Positions 18,255-55,468 of a DNA stretch of 64,000 bases are shown here, piece after piece. The notes under the pieces were generated by a model. That model did not search any database, was not told the origin of the DNA, and was given only the letters and a program-made list of their open reading frames with translations. The DNA comes from Nitrospinota bacterium (lineage in GTDB: Bacteria > Nitrospinota_A > UBA7883 > JACRGQ01). The position numbers and the translations under genes are program-made. Positions within the stretch are counted from its first letter, which is position 1, and every line of letters starts with the position of its first letter. The stretch lies in the NCBI GenBank assembly GCA_029881495.1, contig JAOUMJ010000011.1:1-64000 (forward strand), given 5' to 3'.

Positions 18255-18378
18255 GGTAGCGCAGACTTCAGTCTGCGTGAATTTCGGTATCGTAGCCTTC
18301 AGTCTGCGTATATTTCGGTAGCACAGACTTTAGTCTGAGTGTATTTCGGTAGCGTAGACTTCAGTCTGCGTTTGCCCC
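18255..18378. repeat. Four tandem 31-bp palindromic intergenic repeats
   Basis: Copies begin at 18255, 18286, 18317 and 18348, exactly 31 bp apart; each starts GGTA and contains a hairpin of the form GCAGACTTCAGTCTGC (some copies with one or two changes), with an ATTTC spacer. Sequences of this style are common dispersed intergenic repeats in environmental bacterial genomes. Their function is unknown; they could form stem-loops in the ffs upstream region or after the nucleotidyltransferase gene. Confidence 0.85.
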
Positions 18379-36192: not shown

Positions 36193-39100
36193 ATGATAAA
36201 CGTGAGTAAGCTTGGGGTCGCGGTTCTCATATCTATTTTCACACTAGTTGCCATTCCGAAAGAGGCACATTCTGCCAAGGTAATGAGCAAGGGTGAATAC
36301 ATAGATCTGCTCGTTCAAAAGGATCTTAAATCTTCTCATCAAAATGAATTTATTCCTCAAAATGCATCGAAGATGAAGAAGGACGATTTATACAAATCCG
36401 TTCTTGCATCAATGGCGAAAAAAGGGGTTAAACCTTTTTCATCAGATGATCTCAAATCCCCACTTACAAAAGTTGAGATGGTCGATTTCACATATGCCTT
36501 CCTTACAGGTGATGCTGGCGGAAACTTCATAGAGAGAAAATACTTCCTAAAAGAAAAAGGTGTCGTCGACCCCAACGACATCGGCATGGTAAAGAGTTAT
36601 GAAGGCGATGTAACTTTCACCCGCTTCGAGACCAAAAAGACTTTTGGGATAAACGGCAGTGAAGCTGTCCTTTTCAAGGATGTAGCGGAGACTGAAGAGG
36701 AATCCCGCCTGCAACTGGTATTTGACGATAACTCCGAACTTACTCTCGGTGAAGACAGCGCCGTTGAGATAAACCAGATGATTTTCGACCCCAAGAAGAA
36801 CATCAGGGATATTACCGTCAAAGTCGCTTTTGGTAAATTAAAGGTTAAAGCATCGAAACTGAACACTGCAGACGTTAATTTCAAGATTGAAACGCCGACA
36901 GCCGTTATCGGTGTACGCGGTACAGAATTTGTCGTTGACGTTAATGATACTGGTAAAACAAAAATAACGACTATCGAAGGTCTAGTTGCAGTAAAGCCCA
37001 ATCTTCAGCCTTTCAAAATAAACGGCGGGTCGAAGAATGTTCAGAAGAAAGTTACAAAGATAAATAAGGTCGTTGAAAAGGCTACGAAGGTAAAAGAAAA
37101 AGCCGCAGCCGAAAAAGCAGAGAAAAAAGAGGAAGTAGCGAAACAGAGCGATTCAGCTGAAGAAACAGCGACTACAGAAACAACCGCCGCAGAAACATCA
37201 TCTGCTCCGGTTGAAGCTGCATCTGCACAGGAAGAAGTTCTTCTAGGCGCAAACACCTCTACCGATGTTTCAGAAGAGGGTAATTCCAGCGGGCCTGTTG
37301 ACGTGCCGCCTGCTGAAATGCAGAAAATAATCAAGGAAACCACGGTCATTAATCCTGTAATTGTAGCCGGCGGCGGTGCGGTAAACGCAAGTGAAGCGAA
37401 GAAAGTTGTAGAAGTTGCTGCAAAAGTGGAAGAAGAAATTGTTACTGAAGAAGAAGCAAAGGCAGAAGAGGAGCCTGTAGCAGAAACAACTGAGACCGCC
37501 TCCGAAGAGACAGCTTCTGAAGAGGTCGCCTCCACAGAAGAGGAAGCAACAACTGAGGCTGGAACAGAAACCGAAGAGAAAAGCGTTGCAGAGGAAACCG
37601 TTATAGAAGTCGCTTCCCTGGATAAGGGCGATGGAGGGGAAAAAGCCGCTGAGCTTGAAAAGGAAAAAGACTCGGATGGAGACGGAGTTCCGGATGTAAA
37701 TGATAAATTCCCGAACGATCCAAACGAAGTTGTTGACTCGGATGGAGACGGTGTCGGTGATAACTCAGATGCTTTCCCGAGAAATGCTAAGGAAAAGGCA
37801 GATTCGGATGGAGACGGTGTCGGTGATAATTCAGATGCGTTCCCGAATGATCCGAAAGAGAGCGCCGATTCGGATGGCGATGGTGTCGGTGACAACGGCG
37901 ATGCTTTTCCAAGAGATGCTACTGAAGTTGCCGATTCGGATGGTGACGGTGTAGGTGATAATTCAGATGCGTTCCCGGCAAATGTTAACGAGTCCAAGGA
38001 TTCGGATGGCGATGGAATCGGCGACAACTCAGACAAGTTCCCGAAGGATTCAACCGAGTGGGTCGATTCGGATGGTGACGGCGTAGGCGATAATAAAGAC
38101 GCATTCCCGACTAACAAGAAAGAGTCGAAAGATTCGGATGGAGACGGCATCGGTGATAATTCAGATGCGTTCCCGAACGATGCAACGGAAACTGCTGATT
38201 CAGACGGCGATGGTGTAGGTGACAACAAGGATGCATTCCCGAACAACGCGAAGGAAAAGGCAGATTCTGACGGCGACGGCGTAGGCGATAATTCAGACAA
38301 ATTCCCGAAGGATCCTACCGAGTGGGCTGATTCAGATGGCGACGGCGTAGGCGATAACAAGGATGCATTCCCGAACAACGCGAAGGAATCTAAAGATTCC
38401 GACGGAGATGGCATCGGTGACAATTCCGATAAATTCCCAAACGATGCAACGGAAACTGCTGATGCAGACGGTGACGGCGTAGGCGATAACAAGGATGCCT
38501 TCCCGAAAAATAAGGCTGAGTGGGCAGATTCTGATGGCGATGGCGTAGGCGATAATTCCGACAAATTCCCGAACGACTCAACCGAGACTGCTGATTCTGA
38601 TGGCGACGGTATAGGTAATAACAAGGATGCTTTCCCGAATGATGCAACCGAGACTGCTGATTCAGACGGCGACGGTGTAGGCGATAACAAGGACGCATTC
38701 CCGAATGATCCAACCGAGACAGCAGACTCTGACGGCGACGGAGTTGGGGACAACAAGGATGCTTTCCCGAATGATCCGACCGAGACTGCAGACTCTGACG
38801 GTGATGGTGTAGGTGATAATAAGGACGCATTCCCGAATGATCCAACCGAGACCGCAGATTCTGATGGCGACGGTGTAGGTGATAATAAGGATGCTTTCCC
38901 GAATGATGCAACCGAGACTGCTGATGCAGACGGTGATGGTGTAGGTGATAATAAGGATGCTTTCCCGAACGATCCTACCGAAACCGCAGACTCTGACGGT
39001 GATGGTGTAGGTGATAATAAGGATGCTTTCCCGAATGATCCAACCGAGACCGCAGATTCTGATGGCGACGGTGTAGGTGATAATAAGGATGCTTTCCCGA

Positions 39101-41568
39101 ATGATCCAACCGAGACCGCAGATTCTGATGGCGACGGTGTAGGTGATAATAAGGATGCTTTCCCGAATGATGCAACCGAGACTGCTGATGCAGACGGCGA
39201 CGGTGTAGGCGACAATAAAGACGCATTCCCGAATGATCCGACAGAAACCGCGGATTCTGACGGTGATGGCGTTGGCGACAACAAGGATGCATTCCCGAAT
39301 GATCCAACCGAGACCGTAGACTCTGACGGTGATGGTGTTGGCGACAACAAGGATGCATTCCCGAATGATCCGACAGAAACAGCGGATTCTGACGGTGATG
39401 GCGTTGGCGACAACAAGGACGCCTTCCCGAATGATCCGACAGAAACAGCTGATTCAGACGGTGACGGTGTAGGCAACAATAAGGACGCATTCCCGAATGA
39501 TCCTACCGAGACTGCAGACTCTGACGGTGACGGTGTAGGCAACAACAAGGACGCATTCCCGAATGATCCTACCGAGACTGCAGATTCTGACGGTGATGGT
39601 GTAGGCAACAACAAGGACGCATTCCCGAACGACCCAACTGAGACTGCTGATTCAGACGGCGACGGTGTAGGCGACAACAAGGATGCTTTCCCGTTTGATC
39701 CGACCGAGTGGGCTGATGCTAATGGTAATGGTATTGGTGATAATAAAGAAGCGTCGCTTCTGGCATTAAGCGGTGCAAACTTCCTTGCGATGTGGAATAC
39801 GTTATCACCGCAGGAGCAGGCTCTTTTAAGCAACCTCCTTGCACTAGATCAGAAAGTGTCTATTGCACAGTCGGATATTGGTAATCTGCAGGGTACAAAT
39901 CTCGTAACCTACTGGAAATCACTTGGCGCTGATGTTCAGGGACAGTTGATCGCAGGTCTTACGGCTCAACAGGCGCAGACGATGTTGAGCGGAATGGCCG
40001 GAGCAGAACTTGTTGCATTCTGGAACGCTCTTACCCCTTCTCAGCAGGTAGGGGTGGTTCTTGACGGCACACAGGCTCTTGCGATCATGAACACGGGTAA
40101 TTTGTCTGGAGCAGTTCTTGTCAATTTCTGGTTCACGCTTGATCCGGCTACCCAAGCCGCGATAATTCCCAGCCTGAATACGATGCAGGCACAGACGATT
40201 CTTGACTCACTGACGGGTGCAGAGCGCCAGGCTTTCTGGAACGCCTTGTCACCCGAAATGCAGGCTCAGCTCAATAATGGCCAGAATCCACCGACAGATG
40301 CCGAGATAGGCGATGCGGTAGCAGCTGAGCTTTCGAAGCTTCCAGGTGGAGCTAACGACCAAAGAGCAATCGTTGCCAGTGATGATGTTGTTGCTGCGAT
40401 AAAAGCAGGAGGTCTTGCTTCAGCGGAAGATATTGATGGCGGATTTAAACCAGAAAACTACCAGCTACAGACAGGCGAGTATACCAGCGAAGATGTGAAA
40501 ACCGCACTGTCTGGCAGTGGATACCTTTCCTATGCTGTTCAGGTTGAAGAGGACTTTGTGAACAAGGCTTCGCTGAGAATTTTCAATGATAGCCGGGCTA
40601 CAATGGATGGAGAAGACGATGATCATAGGGATCATGTGCGAAACGAACTGTGGGGCAATATAGATAGTGCCCTTGAAAACTCCGATATCCGTGGTCGTGA
40701 TGCCTTGCTTGAGGAAGTAGCTGACGCAAGGGCCGGCAGGGTTCTTAAGGATGCAAATGGCAACTGGGTTAGGGTTCAGCAGTATGTAATTCGCCCGACA
40801 TCCGATTCATTACAGGTAGTAAGCGTAAATCTGCGGGGCGCGGAGGCTGGAGATCTTTCCGGTCTGCAGTCAATGGACTGGCAAACCGAGTTCGATAAAA
40901 ACCTGCCGGGTGGAAGTGCGATACTTGACCTGCCGTGGGCAGACTACCTGAATACTTACAGGGATTCGAGCGGTAAAACCGGTGGTGATAGCAACGAACA
41001 TGGTAAACAAGGTGAATCAAAAACCGGTTATGTTAAACATGACAGCGACTATGAATTGGATAAGATGTCTGTTGAGTTTAAATCGGGTAGCGACTCGCTT
41101 AAGGAATCAAGATCCTTTAAGGAATTGGATCATGGCAAACAGTCCATATTCGATGAGACTTTGACCGTAAACGGCGAATCGTTCGAGTATGACAGGAACT
41201 TGAATTCCAAGTCGAAGTATATGATTACCATGGTATCCGGCGGAGAATTGAAGTACAGGTACTCAATCAAGGATAGCAATGGAGAAAAGAAGGACATCGA
41301 CGTAAGCCTGTTCGTAGTGGGCGACGCGCATCTGGCCGATAACGTCGGAGTTGACGGTTCAGTTGAAACCGGAGTAAAGGACGTGTGGCAGGGGCTTGGT
41401 GCAAATACAGAAGGTAGCTCAGTAAATGTTGGAAACAATAATCTTGAATTCAGGTTCTCCAACACAAAAGCCAGCAGCGGATTGCTGACAAATCCTCTTG
41501 ATTTGGTATACATACCTCTGCCGAGGATGGATTGGAAAGCCGCTAGTGTGGAAAGGCACCACGATTAG
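36193..41568 (+). CDS. Giant exported FecR-domain protein with 22-residue calcium-loop repeats
   Basis: About 1791 residues from the ATG at 36193, chosen because GGGGTTGGGA precedes it and a signal peptide begins there (GVAVLISIFTLVAIP, cleavage near AHSA). Residues about 150-275 form a FecR-like domain (LTLGEDSAVEINQM, TPTAVIGVRGTEFVVDV). Then a Glu/Ala/Thr-rich linker (about 290-490), 31 repeats of 22 residues (493-1174) built on DSDGDGVGDN, a thrombospondin-type-3-like calcium loop, five W-containing 36-residue repeats (about 1190-1365), and a ~420-residue C-terminus with no family I recognise. Likely a calcium-stiffened surface rod or adhesin. No cell-wall anchor, autotransporter barrel or type I signal is obvious, so its route past the periplasm is open. 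Confidence 0.8.
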   Translation: MINVSKLGVAVLISIFTLVAIPKEAHSAKVMSKGEYIDLLVQKDLKSSHQNEFIPQNASKMKKDDLYKSVLASMAKKGVKPFSSDDLKSPLTKVEMVDFTYAFLTGDAGGNFIERKYFLKEKGVVDPNDIGMVKSYEGDVTFTRFETKKTFGINGSEAVLFKDVAETEEESRLQLVFDDNSELTLGEDSAVEINQMIFDPKKNIRDITVKVAFGKLKVKASKLNTADVNFKIETPTAVIGVRGTEFVVDVNDTGKTKITTIEGLVAVKPNLQPFKINGGSKNVQKKVTKINKVVEKATKVKEKAAAEKAEKKEEVAKQSDSAEETATTETTAAETSSAPVEAASAQEEVLLGANTSTDVSEEGNSSGPVDVPPAEMQKIIKETTVINPVIVAGGGAVNASEAKKVVEVAAKVEEEIVTEEEAKAEEEPVAETTETASEETASEEVASTEEEATTEAGTETEEKSVAEETVIEVASLDKGDGGEKAAELEKEKDSDGDGVPDVNDKFPNDPNEVVDSDGDGVGDNSDAFPRNAKEKADSDGDGVGDNSDAFPNDPKESADSDGDGVGDNGDAFPRDATEVADSDGDGVGDNSDAFPANVNESKDSDGDGIGDNSDKFPKDSTEWVDSDGDGVGDNKDAFPTNKKESKDSDGDGIGDNSDAFPNDATETADSDGDGVGDNKDAFPNNAKEKADSDGDGVGDNSDKFPKDPTEWADSDGDGVGDNKDAFPNNAKESKDSDGDGIGDNSDKFPNDATETADADGDGVGDNKDAFPKNKAEWADSDGDGVGDNSDKFPNDSTETADSDGDGIGNNKDAFPNDATETADSDGDGVGDNKDAFPNDPTETADSDGDGVGDNKDAFPNDPTETADSDGDGVGDNKDAFPNDPTETADSDGDGVGDNKDAFPNDATETADADGDGVGDNKDAFPNDPTETADSDGDGVGDNKDAFPNDPTETADSDGDGVGDNKDAFPNDPTETADSDGDGVGDNKDAFPNDATETADADGDGVGDNKDAFPNDPTETADSDGDGVGDNKDAFPNDPTETVDSDGDGVGDNKDAFPNDPTETADSDGDGVGDNKDAFPNDPTETADSDGDGVGNNKDAFPNDPTETADSDGDGVGNNKDAFPNDPTETADSDGDGVGNNKDAFPNDPTETADSDGDGVGDNKDAFPFDPTEWADANGNGIGDNKEASLLALSGANFLAMWNTLSPQEQALLSNLLALDQKVSIAQSDIGNLQGTNLVTYWKSLGADVQGQLIAGLTAQQAQTMLSGMAGAELVAFWNALTPSQQVGVVLDGTQALAIMNTGNLSGAVLVNFWFTLDPATQAAIIPSLNTMQAQTILDSLTGAERQAFWNALSPEMQAQLNNGQNPPTDAEIGDAVAAELSKLPGGANDQRAIVASDDVVAAIKAGGLASAEDIDGGFKPENYQLQTGEYTSEDVKTALSGSGYLSYAVQVEEDFVNKASLRIFNDSRATMDGEDDDHRDHVRNELWGNIDSALENSDIRGRDALLEEVADARAGRVLKDANGNWVRVQQYVIRPTSDSLQVVSVNLRGAEAGDLSGLQSMDWQTEFDKNLPGGSAILDLPWADYLNTYRDSSGKTGGDSNEHGKQGESKTGYVKHDSDYELDKMSVEFKSGSDSLKESRSFKELDHGKQSIFDETLTVNGESFEYDRNLNSKSKYMITMVSGGELKYRYSIKDSNGEKKDIDVSLFVVGDAHLADNVGVDGSVETGVKDVWQGLGANTEGSSVNVGNNNLEFRFSNTKASSGLLTNPLDLVYIPLPRMDWKAASVERHHD
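37669..39756 (+). repeat. 31 in-register 66-bp coding repeats plus one partial
   Basis: Unit starts step by exactly 66 bp from 37669 to 39715, giving 31 whole units with no indel, then a decayed partial (DANGNGIGDN). Consensus protein unit: DSDGDGVGDNKDAFPNDPTE plus two residues. Units 1-15 vary at residues 11-22; units 16-30 are nearly uniform and share long identical DNA. A four-unit (264-bp) higher-order period is visible: 38857 and 39121 begin identical stretches of about 80 bp. Confidence 0.95.
39757..40280 (+). repeat. Five 36-residue W-motif repeats in the large protein
   Basis: Five copies of a motif of the form (L/R)xx(F/Y/M)W-x-x-L-x-x-x-x-Q: FLAMWNTLSPQEQ, LVTYWKSLGADVQ, LVAFWNALTPSQQ, LVNFWFTLDPATQ and RQAFWNALSPEMQ. 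Tryptophan spacing is 40, 36, 36 and 36 residues. Predicted helical; no named repeat family comes to mind. Confidence 0.8.
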
Positions 41569-44788: not shown

Positions 44789-47074
44789 TCATTTTGATGT
44801 CAGGATGAATACGCCATCCCAGTCCTTCGGAGGTTCCTTTAACTGGAAATCAAGCGCACGTTCCAAATAAGTCATTGCAGGGCCATCATTTACGTCAAAT
44901 TCAAGGATTTCGGAAAACTTGTCTACGGCCTTCTTCCATTCTCTCTCCTTGTAATGACCAAGGCCGTCATTATACAAAGTTATTACATTCTGTTTTTTAG
45001 GATCAATTTTTCCCTTGAGACAAATAAGCTCGTATACCGTTATTATTTCCTGTTTTCCAACGACACGCAACCTGTCAATTTCCCTCGAATCGAAGAGGTG
45101 GCCACAGATGTTATGGGTATAGTGGCTTACCATCAGTTCTGTGCCGTAAGGTTTATTGGCTCCTTCAAGCCTTGCGGCGAGGTTTACAGCGTCACCCATC
45201 ATCGTATAATCCATCCTTGTCCTGGAGCCCATGTTGCCTACGACCATGCTTCCGGTATTTATTCCGATCCTCATTCTTAGCTGTGCTTTTCCCTCCTTGG
45301 CCCAATCTTCCCTCATCAGAGCCAGTTTTTCCTGCATCTCGATCGCAGTAAGGCAACACCGTTCCGCATGGTCCTCGAAATCAAGAGGAGCCCCGTAGAA
45401 TGCGATTATGGCGTCCCCCTCGAACTTGTCCACAACCCCATCGTATTTGAGAATGATGTCAGTCATTGCCGTCAGGTAGTCATTCAGGAGCAATACAAGC
45501 TCCTCTGGGGAAAGTTTTTCCGATATTGTAGAAAATCCGGCAACGTCCGAGAAAAAGGCTGTAAGCTCCTTTCTTTGCCCGCCAAGCTGAAGAGCTGCCG
45601 GATCTTTTATAAGCTGATCAATAACGACTGGAGAGAGGTATTGTCCAAATGCGCCCTGAATATACCGCTTCTCCTTTTCTTCCATGATGAATCGGTAGAT
45701 TGCCAGGGAGGCGTATGCGAGGCCAGTTTCGAGAAGAGGCGGAACCGTATGAAAAACCGTGTTATATCTAGTAAAGAGGATATAATGCGCAAGAAGGGAT
45801 ATTACCGCAATAGCAAGAGCTAAACCTCCCCCTGTGACAGCCCCAAGCCTTGGGACGGTAACAAATAAAACGGTTCCTATAAGAACTATACTGATAAAAT
45901 CGATAAGGATATTTGGAACCGGAGGATCCTTAAGAAAACGCTGGTGTATTATGTTATCAATAACCGTTGCGTGGGATTCCACTCCGGGAAAAACCTTGTC
46001 AAAAGGCGTAATCCGTAAATCTTCGATTGCAGTTGCGGTAGGGCCGATCATTACGATCTTTCCGTCAAGTTGCTCAGGCGGAATTTTACGTTCGATTATA
46101 TCTACAATTGAGAGATGCGGGAATGTTCCACCAGGACCGTAATAGTTTATCCACATTTCGCCCATTTCGTTTGTAGGGATTTCAATGTCACCATCCTTGC
46201 TCATAAGCGCGACTTTTTGAATTCCTAGCGGCCCTGTCCAGATAAGTATTGTAGCTTTTAGATATTTTCGCAACACTGTAAATGAAAGAGGGGGGAAGAG
46301 ATAGTCGTCCTCGCCTTCGAGTTCCACCATATCGCGGTATTTCACGATTAATGGAATTTTCCGCACAGAACCGTCCAAGTCTGGCGCAAAGTTGAAATAT
46401 CCCATCCTTTTTGTCGAGTTGGAAATTTTTTCAATAGTTGCTTCAACCGCATACGCCTTTTTCAAGCGCATATTCTTTAGGTCTGTCCCTTCATCCTTCT
46501 TGAGGCCGGAGTATCGGGATTTCGCGACAATATCAAGATAACTCTCCATTTCAGCTTCAGAAAGATGCTCAAGACCTTCTTCGGAGAAGTGGAAAAAATA
46601 GCCTAATACCGCCTTTTTTGACCGTTTGAGCGCATCGAAAAGTTTCTGGTCATTATCAGCATTGTTTTCGATTTCTGCCAATAGACTTTCAATCTTCGAG
46701 TCAGGAATTCCCTCCTCATTCATTTTAGACCTGATACTGTCTAATTGTTCGGGGGTAATCCCTATCTCTGGAGAGGAAAAGACAATATCAAACCCGAATA
46801 CTTTTACGTTATATTCGGTTAGTGCGTCGACAAGATCCGCTATTACGGTTCTCTTCCAGGGCCATCTGCCGAGTTTATCAATACTTTTCTCATCGATAGT
46901 GGCAATCGCAACTTCGTTTCCTGGTACAAGTTCGCCGCGAACATTGAAAAAGGCGTCCTGCATAAGGAGTTCCAGTCTCCCCATGAACCGAGGAGAGAAG
47001 AGGTAGGAAACCATTACAAGGATTGTGATAGCGACAGTAATGGAGAGGTTGTTCAGCTGAATGAATTTTTTCAT
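44789..47074 (-). CDS. CHASE2-domain class III adenylate/guanylate cyclase
   Basis: 761 residues: an N-terminal TM, a periplasmic CHASE2 sensor (about 35-345, MQDAFFNVRG, ATIDEKSIDKLGRWPW, FGFDIVFS), three TM helices (about 350-440), and a class III cyclase domain (about 495-685). Metal-binding aspartates lie in FFSDVAGFS and KFEGDAIIAFYG; DYTMMGDAVNLAARLE contains the substrate- and transition-state-contacting residues. The C-terminus has a short TPR-like stretch (YKEREWKKAVDKFSEIL). It should make cAMP or cGMP in response to a periplasmic cue. First gene of a three-gene operon convergent with the OmpA-barrel gene. Confidence 0.88.
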   Translation of the reverse strand: MKKFIQLNNLSITVAITILVMVSYLFSPRFMGRLELLMQDAFFNVRGELVPGNEVAIATIDEKSIDKLGRWPWKRTVIADLVDALTEYNVKVFGFDIVFSSPEIGITPEQLDSIRSKMNEEGIPDSKIESLLAEIENNADNDQKLFDALKRSKKAVLGYFFHFSEEGLEHLSEAEMESYLDIVAKSRYSGLKKDEGTDLKNMRLKKAYAVEATIEKISNSTKRMGYFNFAPDLDGSVRKIPLIVKYRDMVELEGEDDYLFPPLSFTVLRKYLKATILIWTGPLGIQKVALMSKDGDIEIPTNEMGEMWINYYGPGGTFPHLSIVDIIERKIPPEQLDGKIVMIGPTATAIEDLRITPFDKVFPGVESHATVIDNIIHQRFLKDPPVPNILIDFISIVLIGTVLFVTVPRLGAVTGGGLALAIAVISLLAHYILFTRYNTVFHTVPPLLETGLAYASLAIYRFIMEEKEKRYIQGAFGQYLSPVVIDQLIKDPAALQLGGQRKELTAFFSDVAGFSTISEKLSPEELVLLLNDYLTAMTDIILKYDGVVDKFEGDAIIAFYGAPLDFEDHAERCCLTAIEMQEKLALMREDWAKEGKAQLRMRIGINTGSMVVGNMGSRTRMDYTMMGDAVNLAARLEGANKPYGTELMVSHYTHNICGHLFDSREIDRLRVVGKQEIITVYELICLKGKIDPKKQNVITLYNDGLGHYKEREWKKAVDKFSEILEFDVNDGPAMTYLERALDFQLKEPPKDWDGVFILTSK

Positions 47075-47549: not shown

Positions 47550-49211
47550 ATGGGTTTTAATGCATTGCAAAAGCGGAGTAGATTATTCGTGACCGTCATA
47601 GCTTTGACTATCGGTATTTTCACTGTTACATTTTCGTACTCAGCTGAAGGCGATGCAAAAGCCACTTCAAAAACTGAAAACAAGGATGAGACAAGGCGAA
47701 GGGAGTTTCAGGAAAATATTGATAAAGCATATCTGGACTCTTTTGCCGAGGCGGTAAAGAAAGACGCAAAGTATGCTACGGAATTGGCTCGGCTAGCCGC
47801 CCAATCTTCGCCCCATCTAGCCTCCGAAATAGCGGCTCGAGCTGCGGAAGTAGCTCCCTCGCAGGCTGAAAGGATAGTGTCGGTAATGGTAACGGAATAT
47901 CCTGATCTGGCATTAAAAACGGTCTTTTCCGTTTCCATGAAGGTTCCCGGGAGTGCCTGGAAAATCGGGGCCGCAGCTGCGGGCATACGAAAAGATATTG
48001 CCTCCCAAATAGCCGCAGCGGTGACATCAGTATCGCCAAAGCAGGCAACATTAATTGCTGTAACGGTAACGAAAGAGGTTCCCAGCGAGGCGGTTGGCAT
48101 TGCATCCGCGGTGGCGACGAAATCACCAGAGAGTGCAGCAAGCGTTGCAAGCGCCATCTCGAAGGTGTTCCCTGACAGCTCTGTAGAATTGGCAGGGAAG
48201 ATGTCAAAGATAAATCCCAATGATTCCCCAACTATCGTTGCGGAGATAACAAAAAATAATCCGGAAAGCGCGGCGGAGATAGCCGCCTCAGCGGCCAAGA
48301 ACGCCCCAGGGAAGGAATCAATGATTGCCGCGGCGGCGACCATCAATTCCCCGAATCTTGCGCCAAGGATTGCCACTTCAGTTGCTGAAGTAAATCCGAA
48401 TGCTACCCTTAAGATTGCCGCATATTTGGCAAAAGTAAATCCGGCCTCCGCCAAAAGTGTAAATTCCGCGCTTGGTAATTTCGCCCCGAATTTAAAGGGG
48501 AGACTGGATAGTATGCTTGCAAAAACCGGAAAGGAAACGAGGATAGAAAGGGCCAAGACGTTAAGAAAGACACTTCCACCCAGTGTAATCGCGACCATTC
48601 AAGAGGCCGCGCAGACAAGGAACAGGGATGTTATGAAGTACGCTATTCGAATTGCCATTAAGAAATACCCGGATCTATCCGTAGATATTGCAAAATTGGC
48701 CGCGATCTACTCCAGGGGGATGGCAGAAGAGATAGCCTTTACTGTGGCACAGTTAGCTCCAAAAGATGCGGCAGGTATCGCTTCGGCAGTCGCCGAGATT
48801 GCACCGGAAAAAGCGGTAGCAATAGCCACATATGCCACTAGGGCAAATCCTAAACTGGCGGCGGAGATTGCCGAATCCGTTGCTGTAGTTGTGCCCGAGA
48901 AAGCCGCCGAGATAGCCGGAGAGGTTGCGAAGATTTCGCCAACAATGGCTGTGCAAATCGCCTCCAGAGTATCAAAAGCCTTGCCAGGAAATACGGTGCA
49001 GGTTGTCGGGAGCGTAGCTGCCGCTGTACCTTCGGCGGCAACGGAAATTGTTACCACTCTCTCAGCTGAACATCCGGAATTAGTCAGTGAAATAATAACA
49101 GTGGCATTTGGGCCAAGTCCTGAAAATGTTGCCAGTGGTGAAGGTGTAGTCGCAGAGCTTGAGATGGTAGGAATTGAAAATCCGGCTCAGGATATTGCGA
49201 GCGCTGAGTAA
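47550..49211 (+). CDS. Exported protein built of ~25 fifteen-residue Ala-rich repeats
   Basis: 553 residues. A signal peptide is visible (VTVIALTIGIFTVTF, cleavage near SYSAEG). From residue about 72 to 312 and again 374 to 523 the chain is a strict 15-residue repeat of the form P-x-x-A-x-x-I-A-x-x-V-A-x-x-x, for example PSEAVGIASAVATKS, PESAASVASAISKVF and PEKAAEIAGEVAKIS. Proline starts almost every unit, so each is probably one helix turned by the proline, stacking into a solenoid or long amphipathic rod. A 61-residue charged spacer (RIERAKTLRKT) separates the two blocks. I know no named family with this repeat. It heads a run of plus-strand polysaccharide-export genes, so a matrix or export-scaffold role is a guess. 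Confidence 0.75.
   Translation: MGFNALQKRSRLFVTVIALTIGIFTVTFSYSAEGDAKATSKTENKDETRRREFQENIDKAYLDSFAEAVKKDAKYATELARLAAQSSPHLASEIAARAAEVAPSQAERIVSVMVTEYPDLALKTVFSVSMKVPGSAWKIGAAAAGIRKDIASQIAAAVTSVSPKQATLIAVTVTKEVPSEAVGIASAVATKSPESAASVASAISKVFPDSSVELAGKMSKINPNDSPTIVAEITKNNPESAAEIAASAAKNAPGKESMIAAAATINSPNLAPRIATSVAEVNPNATLKIAAYLAKVNPASAKSVNSALGNFAPNLKGRLDSMLAKTGKETRIERAKTLRKTLPPSVIATIQEAAQTRNRDVMKYAIRIAIKKYPDLSVDIAKLAAIYSRGMAEEIAFTVAQLAPKDAAGIASAVAEIAPEKAVAIATYATRANPKLAAEIAESVAVVVPEKAAEIAGEVAKISPTMAVQIASRVSKALPGNTVQVVGSVAAAVPSAATEIVTTLSAEHPELVSEIITVAFGPSPENVASGEGVVAELEMVGIENPAQDIASAE
47763..49118 (+). repeat. Two blocks of 45-bp coding repeats
   Basis: About 16 units in the first block and 10 in the second, each coding 15 residues. 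The DNA copies are well diverged, unlike the 66-bp repeats at 37.7-39.7 kb, so the protein pattern is old and under selection. Confidence 0.8.
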
Positions 49212-49238: not shown

Positions 49239-50489
49239 TTGAAGCCCGGTTTCCAGCATCCGGCCAGGAATCCGGGCTCATTTATTGGAGTATTTGTATT
49301 GATTGCTGTTTATTTTTTTATGATTCGGGTAACACCGCTGGCAGAATCAGCGATGCTTGACGAATTACGGACAAAAGGGATTTCAGCTGGCGGTTTTGCG
49401 ATATTTCCCAATCTTAAACTTGGTTATTTGACAGACAGCAACATTTACTCCGAAGAACAAAATCCAACCGGCGACAGCATAACGAAGATCTCACCAAGTT
49501 TGCTGTTCCAGACAAACTGGTCCAGGCACCGCCTTTACTTGCAAGGAGGCGGGGACATGTTTTCATACCAGCAGAATCCTGCTGAAAATCATACGGATGT
49601 CAATGCCAGCACCGGAGTAAAATTGGACATCACCTCGCAGACATCCTTCCTGACAAATTACATGATGAATCAGTTATCCGAAGATCGAGGGTCTCCTGAC
49701 GATGCAAAAGGAAAAAGACCCACAAAATACGGCTTGAATGCGATTGATTTATTGATTGAGCGAAAAGGGGGAATTCTTTCCATAGGCATCGACGGTGGAG
49801 TAAAGACTTTCATCTACGAAGATACAGAAACATCTGCAGGAATAATTGACAACGCAGACAGAGACAGGACTGAAAATACAGCCTCCGTAAAACTAGGATT
49901 TCAATTTCATCCCGGTTTTCACTTCGTAATAAAGAACGGTATCAACCAGCGCATCTACGCGACAGAAAAGGATGATAACGGGTATAACAGGCATTCAACA
50001 GGAAATGATATCAGCGCCGGTATGAGGTTCGATTTTGGCGGGCCTCTTTCAACCGAACTTTTGTTTGGTCAATGGACTCAAATATACGAAGATACCAGGT
50101 TTCCGAAAACAACAGGGGTCTCCTATTCAGGCATATTGTCATGGAGCCCGACACGCTTGACCGCAATAAACTCAATTTTGAAAAGAACTGTCGAAGAAAC
50201 GACCTTAGACAAATCATCAGGTATCTTCACTAGCAATTTGTCTCTTGAAATTCAGCACTCTATTCTTAGAACCGTGGTATTCAACCTTGGAATAGCAGGG
50301 AGTGTGATGGAATTTCAGCAAACCGGGCGAGTCGACAACCTGACAATACCAGAAATCGGCATAAGGTATCTAACAAACAGATATCTCCATCTAAAACTTG
50401 GATACGCTCAGAAGAGCAAAGTCTCCACTGAAAAAGGCGCGGGTTTTGAAAAAGCAGAAGTCAAATTTTCAATCATAGGGCGCATATGA
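49239..50489 (+). CDS. Outer-membrane beta-barrel protein of a polysaccharide locus
   Basis: 416 residues with a TTG start (GAGGA about 8 bases ahead). A hydrophobic export segment (FIGVFVLIAVYFFMIRV) precedes a long stretch of alternating beta-strands: PNLKLGYLTDSNIYSEE, ISPSLLFQTNWSRHRLYLQG, ending KAEVKFSIIGRI. The pattern fits the BBP2-type outer-membrane barrel family often found beside exopolysaccharide genes. The last codons overlap the wza start by four bases (ATGA). Confidence 0.7.
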   Translation: MKPGFQHPARNPGSFIGVFVLIAVYFFMIRVTPLAESAMLDELRTKGISAGGFAIFPNLKLGYLTDSNIYSEEQNPTGDSITKISPSLLFQTNWSRHRLYLQGGGDMFSYQQNPAENHTDVNASTGVKLDITSQTSFLTNYMMNQLSEDRGSPDDAKGKRPTKYGLNAIDLLIERKGGILSIGIDGGVKTFIYEDTETSAGIIDNADRDRTENTASVKLGFQFHPGFHFVIKNGINQRIYATEKDDNGYNRHSTGNDISAGMRFDFGGPLSTELLFGQWTQIYEDTRFPKTTGVSYSGILSWSPTRLTAINSILKRTVEETTLDKSSGIFTSNLSLEIQHSILRTVVFNLGIAGSVMEFQQTGRVDNLTIPEIGIRYLTNRYLHLKLGYAQKSKVSTEKGAGFEKAEVKFSIIGRI

Positions 50490-51079
50490 AATTAACTGTT
50501 ATAAAAAGCTGTTTTAACACACAGCCTGGCAAAAAGAGGGCAGGTCTGAGCGTGATTTTGTGCGCTGTATTTGCTTTCATGGATGTATCAATCGCTCTCG
50601 GAGCCGGAGCATCTTCCACAATGGATGTTTACAACCTGGGTTCTGGAGACAAAATAAGGATAACCGTATTCGGTCACGCTGATCTCTCCGGAGAATTTCT
50701 GGTGGACGATACAGGGGCGATTTCCATGCCACTAATAGGTTCGGTTTTATGCGGCGGTCTGACAATAAGAGAGCTTGAAAAAACTATCATTCGCGAACTT
50801 AAAGACGGGTATCTGGTAAATCCAAGCGTGAATGTCGAAGTCGTTAAATTCAGGCCATTTTACATTATTGGCGAAGTTGCAAAGCCAGGGAGTTACCCCT
50901 ACATAAGCGGCATGACGGTTTTTAATGCTGTCGCTTTGGCGGGTGGTTTTACGAGCCGCGCAAAAAAAAGCGAAGTAATGATCTCAAGAGGAGGGGGCAA
51001 GGCAAAAGAGGTAAAGTTGAAATCTGAAACCGTTGTCTTGCCTGGAGATATTATTGAAATTCCCGAACGGTTTTTTTGA
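50486..51079 (+). CDS. Polysaccharide export protein (Wza/GumB family)
   Basis: 197 residues: a signal peptide (AGLSVILCAVFAFMDVSIALG), the poly-export domain (YNLGSGDKIRITVFGHADLS, DDTGAISMPLIGSV), and one SLBB domain (FYIIGEVAKPGSYPYISGMT, NAVALAGGF). It lacks a lipobox cysteine and the C-terminal pore helix of Wza, so it is a short periplasmic/outer-membrane export component. It precedes wzc by 28 bases. Confidence 0.88.
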   Translation: MKLTVIKSCFNTQPGKKRAGLSVILCAVFAFMDVSIALGAGASSTMDVYNLGSGDKIRITVFGHADLSGEFLVDDTGAISMPLIGSVLCGGLTIRELEKTIIRELKDGYLVNPSVNVEVVKFRPFYIIGEVAKPGSYPYISGMTVFNAVALAGGFTSRAKKSEVMISRGGGKAKEVKLKSETVVLPGDIIEIPERFF

Positions 51080-51107: not shown

Positions 51108-53342
51108 ATGGTAATCAAGGGGACACACTATCCGATGTATCCGGCTACGCATGGTCTTCATGATCAGGAGGAATTGGATCTTCAATCGCTCATTGGTCTG
51201 TTAAGGCGCCGGAAATATATGATATTAGGTACGATGCTGCTCGTTACAATATCGGCATTTCTTGTAGTGTCTCAAATGACGCCAAGATATACTGCTGAAG
51301 CCGGATTGTTGATAGAAAATAAACAGTTAAGGGTCATGAATATCGAATCGATATTTTCTTCCGTTATAAACCTTGACAGGGAAAAAATGATTCTCACTTC
51401 AACAGTATTGTCAGAGAGAGTCGTTGAAAAGGGGAATTTACTCCGCTATAAGGAATTCAATCCACAGCCGGGAGAGAAATATTCCGTTTTGAATCCTCGC
51501 AAGTACATTCCAAGGGAATGGATAGAAGCTCTTATAGGCAAAGAGTCCGATTTGGAAAAAGGCGAAATGACGGAATATGAGAAAAAAATCAGAGCTTCCG
51601 AGATATTGCGTAATAGTCTTGAAATCAATCATAAGGACAATTCAGGACTTCTAAAAGTCCGGGTTACATCGGAATCTCCTGAAGCTGCGGCAATCGCCAC
51701 GAATCAGCTTTTGCAAGAATATATAGGTGAGATGATGGAATCCCGCTATCAGGGGACAAAACAGGCTTCAAAATGGCTAAATGATACCATGGAAGAGTAT
51801 AAAGAGAAAGTGCAGGAATCAGAAAACGCCGTTGAGGAGTACAAGAGAGAGATTGGACTCACTGAAAGCGGAGGTGAATCCATATATACACAACAACATT
51901 CCCAACACAGTTCTCAATTTATGAATGCTAAAAATGCGCGTCTCGATATGGAAGCCAGGATCAGCCAAGTGCGAAAAGCGCTTAAATCCGGTAATCTGGA
52001 AGCGGCGCCAGTCGAGGTACGCACATCTCCGCTTTTACAGAATCTGTACCTGAACAATTCCAAAATATCTTCAAAAATATCCGAATTGTCCACAATATAC
52101 GGACCAAAACATCCGGTGATGATAAATGCCATGGCTGAAAAGACAAAGGTGCAGGATGAAATTGTACAGGAGATAAAAAAAATAGCCTTCAGTCTGGAAT
52201 CGGAATATGAAGTTGCCAAAAAGAAAGAGCTGACAATGAAAATGGCGATGGATGAATTCCAGGAAAAGATCGGCACTTTTAAAAAATATGAGATTGAGTT
52301 AAGAGCACTGGAAAGGGAAGCGAAAGCGAACAGGGGACTTTACGAATCTTTTCTTACTCGTTACAAAGAAGTTAATTCGCAACCCGATATACAGGATATA
52401 GACGCAAAAATAATTTATGAGGCTACTCCGCCAACAACAAAATCCTTTCCAAGAACAAGGCTGATCATTATGATGGCATTTGTATTTTCCATCGCGATAG
52501 GCGTCTTTTTTGGATTCCTTATGGATAATCTGGAATCAGGTTACGTCAACGTGGAACAGGTAGAGCATATGACAGGCGTGAAAACCATAGGGCTGGTTCC
52601 ATATTTGGAATCTAACGGGCCCATTCCTCAAAAACCGTCGGATTATATTTTGGAAAATCCAAAATCTATTTATGGTGAATCTCTTTACAATATCAGAACC
52701 GCTCTGACAATGATAAAGGAAAATAAGTCCTCGAAGGTATTTCTTGTATCATCCGCGGAACCAGGTGAGGGAAAAACTTCCTTTGTAGTGTCCTTGTCCA
52801 GGATTGCCGCAAAGTACGGAGATAAGGTTGTTGTAGTCGATTGCGATTTGAGAAAACCAAAGATCCAAAAAGCAATGACTGGCGCAAAATGGGTAGGGAT
52901 TGCGGACTATCTGTACGGCGACAAGGAGCTGGAAGAGGTGATCAGTAAAGACGTAACCGGCGCTGATTTTATTTCTGTTGGCAGGCCATTTGAAGGGGGG
53001 GCGGCTGATGTGCTCGCTTCCGACAAAATGAAGGAACTTGTCGCCAAACTGCGCGAGATTTACGATATAGTGATTCTAGATACTCCGCCAGTATTGGTAG
53101 TTTCGGATGCTTTGGTTTTAAGCAAACTTGTAGACAAGACCATGTACGTCGTTAAATGGGGAAAAACAAGACGTGAAGCTGTCAACAAAGGGATAAAAGT
53201 TATAAGCAGTACTATTGAAGATGAAAATACTCTTGGCATTGTGCTTACGCAAGTAAATCTAAAAAAATACCCGCTCTACGATTACGGGTCGCACGGATAT
53301 TACAACCCTAAAATATACGAGTATTATAAGGGGTACTCATAA
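51108..53342 (+). CDS. Wzc-type chain-length regulator with BY-kinase domain
   Basis: 744 residues. TM1 (about 37-57), a long periplasmic Wzz-type coiled coil (about 60-440), TM2 (about 448-470), then a cytoplasmic bacterial tyrosine kinase: Walker A SSAEPGEGKTSFVVSL, Walker A' VVVVDCDLRKPK, Walker B IVILDTPPVLVVSD. The C-terminus is a tyrosine cluster (YPLYDYGSHGYYNPKIYEYY), the usual autophosphorylation site. It controls polysaccharide polymerisation and export with Wza. Confidence 0.93.
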   Translation: MVIKGTHYPMYPATHGLHDQEELDLQSLIGLLRRRKYMILGTMLLVTISAFLVVSQMTPRYTAEAGLLIENKQLRVMNIESIFSSVINLDREKMILTSTVLSERVVEKGNLLRYKEFNPQPGEKYSVLNPRKYIPREWIEALIGKESDLEKGEMTEYEKKIRASEILRNSLEINHKDNSGLLKVRVTSESPEAAAIATNQLLQEYIGEMMESRYQGTKQASKWLNDTMEEYKEKVQESENAVEEYKREIGLTESGGESIYTQQHSQHSSQFMNAKNARLDMEARISQVRKALKSGNLEAAPVEVRTSPLLQNLYLNNSKISSKISELSTIYGPKHPVMINAMAEKTKVQDEIVQEIKKIAFSLESEYEVAKKKELTMKMAMDEFQEKIGTFKKYEIELRALEREAKANRGLYESFLTRYKEVNSQPDIQDIDAKIIYEATPPTTKSFPRTRLIIMMAFVFSIAIGVFFGFLMDNLESGYVNVEQVEHMTGVKTIGLVPYLESNGPIPQKPSDYILENPKSIYGESLYNIRTALTMIKENKSSKVFLVSSAEPGEGKTSFVVSLSRIAAKYGDKVVVVDCDLRKPKIQKAMTGAKWVGIADYLYGDKELEEVISKDVTGADFISVGRPFEGGAADVLASDKMKELVAKLREIYDIVILDTPPVLVVSDALVLSKLVDKTMYVVKWGKTRREAVNKGIKVISSTIEDENTLGIVLTQVNLKKYPLYDYGSHGYYNPKIYEYYKGYS

Positions 53343-53407: not shown

Positions 53408-54055
53408 TTGATCATATGGTTTTCGGTGTTCAGGATGCTGGAGGGAATCATCCTCTTTCCAGCCGAGCCGGGGTTAAGCGTTATAAGGGAGGGGGGCGAG
53501 GTCTCAAACGAAAAGCTCGACTACCTGATAACGAGGTTGCAGACAGTCGCAGGTATTTCTCCCAATTACAATATCCATAATTTATTAGGACACCTGTACG
53601 GTATAAAGGGGATGCAAGCCGGAGTTTCAGAAGAGGAAACTTCTCTTCTGAATGAATTGGCAATCGAAAACATGGTGAAAGGTTTATCACACGCTCCTGC
53701 AAGCCCTTATCCATGGGCAAGGTATGCTCAATTGGAAATTCTGAAAGGGGATATCGCAAAAGCCGCAAAAGGGATTAAAGTTTCCTATATGAATGGATTT
53801 TACGACGATAGGCTATTTTTGCCTCGCCTGAAGATCGCGTTATCTGCCTTCAACGAGATAGATCATGAAGGCAGGGATATAGTAAAGAGACAGATTATCT
53901 TAGGGATGGAAGATAATCCGAAAGAAATTGTAAGAGTAGCCTGGGGGAACAGAAATATTCTTCCGATCATAAGGAATTTATTGGCGGAACAGCCAGATCA
54001 TCTGAAGAAATTCAATGAGATGTATAATCCATTTTCGAGTAGCGGGGATAGCTAG
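53408..54055 (+). CDS. Small membrane-anchored protein of the polysaccharide locus
   Basis: 215 residues from a TTG at 53408, but this start cuts into a hydrophobic segment. The frame is open from 53330, and codons upstream extend the TM helix (TELLVVFIIALLIIWF). AAAGGAG at 53362-53368 has no standard start codon at good distance, so the true start is unclear; an unusual codon (CTG at 53384 or ATA overlapping the wzc stop) is possible. The rest is soluble and helical, TPR-like in places (ARYAQLEILKGDIAKAAKGI). No family recognised; co-directional with wzc. Confidence 0.55.
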   Translation: MIIWFSVFRMLEGIILFPAEPGLSVIREGGEVSNEKLDYLITRLQTVAGISPNYNIHNLLGHLYGIKGMQAGVSEEETSLLNELAIENMVKGLSHAPASPYPWARYAQLEILKGDIAKAAKGIKVSYMNGFYDDRLFLPRLKIALSAFNEIDHEGRDIVKRQIILGMEDNPKEIVRVAWGNRNILPIIRNLLAEQPDHLKKFNEMYNPFSSSGDS

Positions 54056-54064
54056 TAACTCGAT

Positions 54065-55468
54065 TTATAATGACCTCTTGCGTTTGAGTGATTGGGATGC
54101 CGACATTCCCATTATCAAAGCGTAGAGTGATGCATTTGCTGGTATCTGAATACTGAAATCAAACAGTGAATGGATCGCGACCAAGGCTGTAGATGCTAGT
54201 CCGATAACAGGAAACATAAAGTTGTGTTCACGCATCATAATCCCACGCAGACAAGTAAATATCAGTGCACCAAAAGCCGAAAGGAGCAGGGCTGTTGCGG
54301 GAATTCCCAGTTCGAAGGCGGTCTCAAGGTAGACATTATGTGCTTTTGTAAAAAACATTCCTGTTTCTCTGTCCCTGTATTTTGGGAATGATTCCGCATA
54401 AGTGCCGTACCCCTTCCCAAAAAACGGGGATTCGGATATGCCTTTAATCGTGCTCGCATAAACAATCATCCTTGAGTCCTCAAGATCACTGTTTCTCATG
54501 CGATTTGACGTAGTTTCTCCTGAAATAGACATGATGCCAAAGTAGCAAATGCAGAGGGTAATAAAAGAGAGAGCGATACTCAGCTTTCTATTTTTACTGC
54601 TAAATAAATACAGGAGAAACAATATGGCAATTGCACCAGTAGTGCTTATTAGCCCACCTCTTGAGAACGTTAGCAATAACGAAGAAAAGGAAACAATGAA
54701 TAAAATTATATAAATCCAGCCTGATTCTAAAATTGAGTATAGTGTCCTCACGATTTCTTCGCCAAGGTAGGAATATTGTCCCGACACCTTGAAGGTAATA
54801 TCCATGAATTGTGCAAGAGCGACCAATGCGATCATGCCTGAATACGTCGCAAAATGATTTCTGTTTGCAAATGTGCTTCTCAATCCTTCAGAGTGATGGT
54901 CATTACCGTGCCATGGGACGGTGCTTGTTCCAGATAAATAAATGTAAAGGCCAAAAGCAGAATATGCCAATCCGGAAAAGAGTACGATTTTCAAGATAAG
55001 CTTTGCGTTTTTTGTGTTTGTCGAATATTGAAACGATAAAAAGAAAATTGTGCCATATGTAAAGAGCTTCATAAGCCCCATATATGATTCATATGGATTG
55101 ACGCTGATACTTCCTGTGACAGTATTTCCAAGAGCAAACGACGCATCCTGCCATGCAGAATTTTGCCAGGACAAAGGAGTAAAAGGAGAATTTTGGAAAA
55201 ATATCCAGGCTCCAACTGAAATAAAAAGCCAGAATGGGAATCTGATATATTCAAATTGTGGCGAAAAGGAGAACTTACCCGAAGAAACCTGAATAGACCA
55301 TGACAACAGAAGCAAGCCGGAAGCAAAAGAAAGCATGCTCCAAGGAAGAGGGCGGTTGCTGCCAAGGAACAGGGGCGAAACTGAAACAGCAAATAATAAT
55401 ATGTATAGGATTATTGGCGAGCCATGTGTAGAGCTATTACCAGTGTGAAAATGGTTGCGAAGTTTCAT
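54065..55468 (-). CDS. O-antigen ligase/polymerase-like membrane protein (Wzy/WaaL family)
   Basis: 467 residues with about twelve TM helices and a large loop after the eighth. The Wzy_C-type signature lies near 335-375: GKGYGTYAESFPKYRD, then FTKAHNVYLETAFELG with the conserved histidine, and a late FDFSIQIPANA segment. It should polymerise or ligate glycan repeat units at the periplasmic face. Transcribed opposite to, and convergent with, the export genes. Confidence 0.82.
   Translation of the reverse strand: MKLRNHFHTGNSSTHGSPIILYILLFAVSVSPLFLGSNRPLPWSMLSFASGLLLLSWSIQVSSGKFSFSPQFEYIRFPFWLFISVGAWIFFQNSPFTPLSWQNSAWQDASFALGNTVTGSISVNPYESYMGLMKLFTYGTIFFLSFQYSTNTKNAKLILKIVLFSGLAYSAFGLYIYLSGTSTVPWHGNDHHSEGLRSTFANRNHFATYSGMIALVALAQFMDITFKVSGQYSYLGEEIVRTLYSILESGWIYIILFIVSFSSLLLTFSRGGLISTTGAIAILFLLYLFSSKNRKLSIALSFITLCICYFGIMSISGETTSNRMRNSDLEDSRMIVYASTIKGISESPFFGKGYGTYAESFPKYRDRETGMFFTKAHNVYLETAFELGIPATALLLSAFGALIFTCLRGIMMREHNFMFPVIGLASTALVAIHSLFDFSIQIPANASLYALIMGMSASQSLKRKRSL

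Follow-up and report, generated by a model that had tools for sequence, protein, structure and literature searches.

The window, a 64,000-nucleotide stretch of Nitrospinota DNA (contig JAOUMJ010000011.1, positions 1 to 64,000; genome G000 below), carries a gene for a 553-residue repeat protein followed by a set of polysaccharide-export genes. The features are listed below, with residue numbers referring to the repeat protein.

47550-49211, + strand: 15-mer protein, predicted alpha-solenoid, 553 aa, ATG start
47550-47642, + strand: putative Sec-type signal peptide (aa 1-31), assigned by eye from the sequence
47652-47810, + strand: N-terminal helical lead-in (aa 35-87) in the model, pLDDT about 70
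47811-48485, + strand: repeat block 1 (aa 88-312), 15 units of P-x-x-A-x-x-I-A-x-x-V-A-x-x-x, from repeat analysis and model
48486-48758, + strand: charged segment (about aa 313-403), degenerate units modelled as ~15-residue helices
48759-49118, + strand: repeat block 2 (aa 404-523), 8 units, register 1 residue off that of block 1, from repeat analysis and model
49170-49208, + strand: C-terminal tail GIENPAQDIASAE, related to the tails of syntenic proteins
49239-50489, + strand: BBP2_2 outer-membrane beta-barrel, candidate outer-membrane translocon (Pfam PF10082, E 8e-82)
50486-51079, + strand: short Wza/OPX protein of D1D2 type, 197 aa (Poly_export 46-119 and one SLBB 125-172)
51108-53342, + strand: Wzc-like polysaccharide co-polymerase/tyrosine autokinase, 744 aa, from profile matches
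53408-54055, + strand: small protein of ~215 aa, position conserved in relatives, weak TPR match
54065-55468, − strand: Wzy_C/O-antigen-ligase family membrane protein, convergent (PF04932, E 9e-23)

Profile searches confirmed that the repeat gene lies directly upstream of genes for a BBP2_2 barrel, Wza and Wzc in that order, as had been proposed in an earlier reading made from the letters of this DNA (the sequence-only reading). The barrel gene overlaps wza by 4 bp, and the 197-residue Wza consists of D1 and D2 only, without the outer-membrane-spanning Wza_C. With a D1D2-only OPX protein and an outer-membrane barrel encoded side by side, the locus is, as judged by its gene content, a composite OPX/beta-barrel exporter. 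Translocons of a class-3/D1D2 OPX protein with a barrel are established (PMC9601211, PMC9603273), and the Myxococcus EpsX/EpsY and WzpX/WzaX systems resemble the window locus in having adjacent genes for a D1D2-type OPX protein, an outer-membrane beta-barrel and a Wzc-type co-polymerase; the window locus differs in that its barrel is BBP2_2. Targeted text searches of the two articles found no accessory secreted repeat protein. On the other side of the repeat gene, a gene encoding CHASE2 plus adenylate cyclase (44789-47074) runs divergently from it.

At a lag of 15 residues the 553-residue protein has an identity autocorrelation of 0.243 (z = 13 relative to shuffled sequences); the multiples 30, 45 and 60 follow with z of about 9-10, and no other lag comes near these values. 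Since the signal at lag 30 does not exceed that at lag 15, the repeat unit is one helix rather than a hairpin pair. The 23 cleanest units follow the pattern P-x-x-A-x-x-(I)-(A)-x-x-(V/A)-(A/S/T)-x-x-x (P1 in 22/23, A4 in 17/23, I7 in 18/23, A8 in 15/23, V/A11 in 16/23 and A/S/T12 in 20/23), and together with the lag-15 signal the proline count bears out the 15-residue proline-headed repeat described earlier. In-phase comparison of units gave identities of 0.47, 0.52 and 0.27 at codon positions 1, 2 and 3, versus 0.32, 0.29 and 0.25 out of phase. Conservation of the first two positions with the third at background indicates that the period is held at the protein level and does not stem from recent DNA duplication; Tandem Repeats Finder likewise reported no DNA repeat within 47550-49211, in agreement with the claim that DNA copies have diverged while the protein pattern holds. 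Adjacent units are no more alike than remote ones, indicating that the array is old. By eye, residues 1-31 show a basic n-region, a hydrophobic core and small residues at the end and look Sec-type, which is consistent with the proposed export of the protein. Its C-terminus, ENPAQDIASAE, is free of a transmembrane segment and does not show the pattern of PEP-CTERM/exosortase substrates (PEP motif, transmembrane helix and basic end).

An AlphaFold2 model built from a shallow alignment of 4 sequences has a mean pLDDT of 79.7, reaching about 90 over much of the repeat array, and consists of an unbroken series of some 30 helices, in most cases 14 residues long, with one-residue breaks between them. 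The window protein is predicted to be an alpha-solenoid of single 14-residue helices with a proline every 15 residues. The sequence-only reading had named structure prediction as a check, and this single-helix 14+1 solenoid supports its helical array, although its count of ~25 repeats falls short of the helices in the model. Its division into two blocks with a charged spacer also stands as far as blocks and charge are concerned, but the spacer is itself modelled as ~15-residue helices, with a net register shift of one residue between the blocks. The modelled lead-in starts with one long helix and continues with 15-mer-spaced helices that have no proline. A relative, g12, was modelled separately and shows a low-confidence beta region in its FecR-matching part, then 14+1 helices at pLDDT about 90 and a disordered tail; the g12 model is poor overall (pLDDT 48), the solenoid part alone being confident. 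Foldseek searches against the PDB returned just general alpha-solenoids and designed toroids, and TM-scores of 0.06-0.32 with rmsd of about 17-30 A indicate no matching superhelix among the matches listed. Against viral models, nothing better than the PDB matches was found.

Coiled coils with a 15-residue (15/4) period exist, and the protein could be a stalk of this pentadecad type, or an alanine-rich low-complexity chain, instead of a folded solenoid. An alanine content of 20%, the known 15-residue coiled coils and the shallow alignment behind the model speak for such a structure. A pentadecad, however, needs a continuous helix with a 15-residue hydrophobic pattern, whereas proline heads 22 of 23 units here and every repeat helix is separated by a break in a model with pLDDT of about 90, as also seen in the g12 relative. 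Proline every 15 residues and the helix breaks, the latter predicted by the models, argue against a coiled coil in the window protein, and we consider a non-solenoid structure very improbable. The earlier statement that the repeat fits no TPR, HEAT or coiled-coil pattern is right for TPR and HEAT, given a period of 15 and the lack of a profile match, but went too far for coiled coils, since 15/4 forms are known.

Searches of Pfam, NCBIfam, PHROGs and PDB sequences gave no family match for the window protein, those against PDB sequences yielding nothing convincing. A match to a characterised repeat family had been named as a refutation of a new scaffold, and none emerged from these four collections. 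Weak Pfam/NCBIfam matches to DUF3726, ZapG-like and SspB-like models were far under cut-off and were taken as chance. HEAT, ARM, TPR, Sel1 and designed alpha/alpha toroids, the general class of the best Foldseek matches, share stacked short helices with the window model. However, TPR, HEAT, ARM and Sel1 proteins are recognised by profile matches and two-helix units of about 34-47 residues, whereas the window protein has no Pfam match and a unit of a single 15-residue helix. TPR scaffolds serve barrel exporters (PMC9384988, PMC9734138), and AlgK and the TPR domain of PgaA are, like the window protein in our reading, secreted alpha-solenoids working with an outer-membrane beta-barrel polysaccharide exporter. 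By contrast with their 34-residue two-helix TPR unit, the window protein has a 15-residue one-helix unit, is encoded by a separate gene without a TPR match, and belongs to a Wzc/Wza-type rather than synthase-dependent locus. Text searches of a body of literature that lacks most subscription papers, and so cannot prove absence, found no description of 15-residue solenoids or of FecR/OPX accessory proteins.

BBP2_2 barrels occur in 8 of 24 Nitrospinota genomes, the repeat protein in 7 of those 8, and neither of them in the other 16 (Fisher 2e-5); in the eighth barrel genome (G020) the barrel is cut at the contig end. All eight Nitrospinota barrel loci with readable upstream DNA, a second G015 locus included, are preceded by a secreted 15-mer protein. 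The same six-gene order recurs in another Nitrospinota family (L013, L015), where the product of the first gene combines FecR with 15-mers and has the tail ENPSQSVSGR or ENPGQSISKG. The more divergent members in G012, G013, G015 and G019 have 142-313 residues and C-termini of (A/L/G)SPS. When 385 genomes were searched with the profile, just 4 window-type proteins reached E <= 1e-5, all of them barrel-linked. Weak matches inside a fatty-acid synthesis protein (G007) and a large repetitive surface protein (G183) were judged spurious. Scans of genome and viral contig collections with the repeat, as single proteins or alignments, gave no further relatives, the patterns being too degenerate; the FecR-bearing alignment alone recovered three Nitrospinota MAGs there, and scanned plasmid and phage collections gave no match. 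Comparison of the window-type with the SPS-type repeat profile by hhalign gave a probability of 16%, a weak likeness that falls short of showing common descent for all bodies.

Four Pseudomonadota 15-mer proteins also lie beside barrels (G537, 284 aa; G569, 322 aa; G493, 806 aa; G726, 198 aa), although they came from fetched barrel neighbourhoods and are thus no measure of linkage. Those of G537, G569 and G493 match the repeat profile as well, whereas that of G726 has few repeats and is unmatched; the G493 gene is divergent from its barrel and encodes a protein with a FecR-like start by eye and a tail ENQASPS. Many Pseudomonadota BBP2_2 barrels have no 15-mer neighbour, indicating that such translocons do not generally require the protein. 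Placement beside the composite translocon thus recurs in two phyla, and the linkage of the repeat to exporter genes, which the sequence-only reading had proposed to check by profile search, holds for every readable barrel locus in Nitrospinota and for some of the barrels in Pseudomonadota. In the gammaproteobacterium G305, a secreted 15-mer protein of 246 aa (L043 383-1123), with a weak profile match, is encoded beside purD/purH-like genes and away from polysaccharide genes.

Elsewhere the position before the barrel is often held by other secreted proteins, including FecR (G236), helical proteins ending in EEPASPIY, EEPASQS or ENPASQS, and others ending in VSPS or SPASPFRP. In other phyla, small secreted pre-barrel proteins with similar short C-termini were seen at L078 3584-4177, L081 770-1369, L075 4242-4922 and in the upstream genes of L083 and L086. 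FecR (PF04773) is carried by the g12 and G236 proteins in the equivalent gene position, with L003 and L072 above the Pfam cut-off and L002 and L004 just under it; the window protein has no PF04773 match. The repeat protein is one of the body types found at an accessory position that recurs ahead of BBP2_2 barrels; its relatives may carry FecR and often have a similar C-terminal tail. Its description as a repeat protein heading one locus was correct in placing it before the barrel, but was too narrow for a position with varying bodies.

The C-termini of these syntenic proteins often read ENPx(x)S-A-S-P or a fragment thereof, as in ENPAQDIASAE (window), ENPSQSVSG (g12), ENPQRSASPF (G569) and ENQASPS (G493). 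A tail regex was fixed before the last search and applied to 40 held-out loci, 4 of which had no usable barrel ORF and 15 no same-strand upstream gene. The strict test failed, with 0/21 matches among the same-strand genes immediately preceding a barrel; the majority of these genes do not encode small secreted proteins. Background matches were 2/194 in non-accessory proteins and 0/78 in held-out loci, and the 2/4 found for Pseudomonadota 15-mer proteins come from a subset picked after the fact. Because of the 0/21 count and this later choice of subset, the common tail is a supported lead, drawn from sequence comparison, rather than a proven signature.

A different kind of terminus is found in the SPS-type proteins of G012, G013 and G019, in which the repeats end with helix-(A)DP-x5-TAAG. 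The NF033682 LapA retention model matches exactly at this module (E 1e-4 to 8e-3), which fits the published LapG site, a DP followed by [T/A/P]AAG after a targeting helix (PMC13090378). LapG (PF06035) was detected in these three genomes and G020 only among the 24 Nitrospinota genomes, that is, in 3/3 genomes with a TAAG protein versus 1/21 others (Fisher 0.002). In G019 some 3.5 kb separate it from the repeat gene, and in G012, G013 and G020 a LapD-like gene (by eye) directly follows it. LapG-type retention, in which the protein would sit in the barrel or outer membrane and be freed by proteolysis under c-di-GMP control, is favoured by these matches. However, a DP..TAAG module is missing from the window protein and a PF06035 LapG from the window genome; moreover, the three TAAG proteins are related and thus not independent, and LapG there may serve ordinary adhesins. 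We consider this mode of action improbable for the window protein. The pairing of LapG-site repeat proteins with LapG in the three genomes was noted at L025 5106-5534 and 8986-9732, L026 9761-10702, L027 9035-9589, L050 6920-7714 and L051 4252-4932. In L050, a CHASE2-type protein (by eye) similar to that of the window precedes LapG, and at L072 2398-3048 a lipoprotein-like transglutaminase/LapG-like protein (by eye) is encoded immediately ahead of the FecR protein at the barrel locus of G236.

The helical nature, protein-level constraint and tie to polysaccharide export put forward in the sequence-only reading are upheld by repeat statistics, the model and gene position. We suggest, at a probability of roughly 50%, that the window protein may serve the barrel/OPX translocon as an alpha-solenoid scaffold in the envelope, an analogue of the AlgK and PgaA TPR domains without being a member of their family. 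The protein would be Sec-exported, and its rod-like solenoid would form a scaffold within the envelope, most likely in the periplasm. With the BBP2_2 barrel crossing the outer membrane and the short D1D2-type Wza beneath it, the short C-terminal tail would dock on the barrel or the OPX protein, and the docked solenoid would assist in assembling, bracing or gating the translocon, a part played in other exopolysaccharide systems by the AlgK and PgaA TPR solenoids. Such a role is supported by the period and its constraint, the predicted fold, gene position and barrel co-occurrence in Nitrospinota, the Pseudomonadota neighbours and the related tails, and is countered by the G305 protein away from polysaccharide genes, the barrels without a 15-mer neighbour, the failed tail test and the weak profile similarity between repeat types.

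The main rival to a scaffold is an extracellular matrix or surface protein, a solenoid released through or with the polysaccharide that would structure the polymer, with the tail as an export or retention signal. The widely varying repeat number among relatives (142-806 aa), the Gly/Asp/Ala/Gln-rich linkers preceding the tail, the co-location with the exporter and the lack of a membrane anchor point to such a protein. However, the signal peptide and the FecR-type bodies of relatives suit a periplasmic protein equally well, and there is neither a known secretion signal nor a known route for a folded solenoid through a BBP2_2 barrel. A matrix role is possible but rather unlikely in our judgement.

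More broadly, and with low confidence, the position may represent an undescribed accessory site in several phyla, at which secreted proteins with interchangeable bodies (15-mer solenoid, FecR or other helical) would dock on the translocon by a common tail (around ENPx(x)S-A-S-P) and in some lineages be cut by LapG. If so, LapG cutting would subject polysaccharide export of the Wzx/Wzy type to proteolysis controlled by c-di-GMP, a tie that may hold for some of these exporters. The composite translocon itself is already known; what is new is the unit size and the unrecognised accessory position. A scaffold role, if true, would supply a missing part of the third route by which polysaccharides are exported across the outer membrane, recognised only recently, and would present an alpha-solenoid whose unit, a single 15-residue helix, is half the usual size. 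For specialists on the assembly of these exporters, the pre-barrel gene and its short tail offer a simple handle.

Elsewhere in the window, 66-bp tandem repeats in about 30 copies (37708-39707) lie within an 1850-aa ORF and encode Asp-rich DPTETADSDGDGVGDN units resembling thrombospondin type-3 calcium repeats, and a short intergenic 31-bp tandem array is located at 18255-18371.
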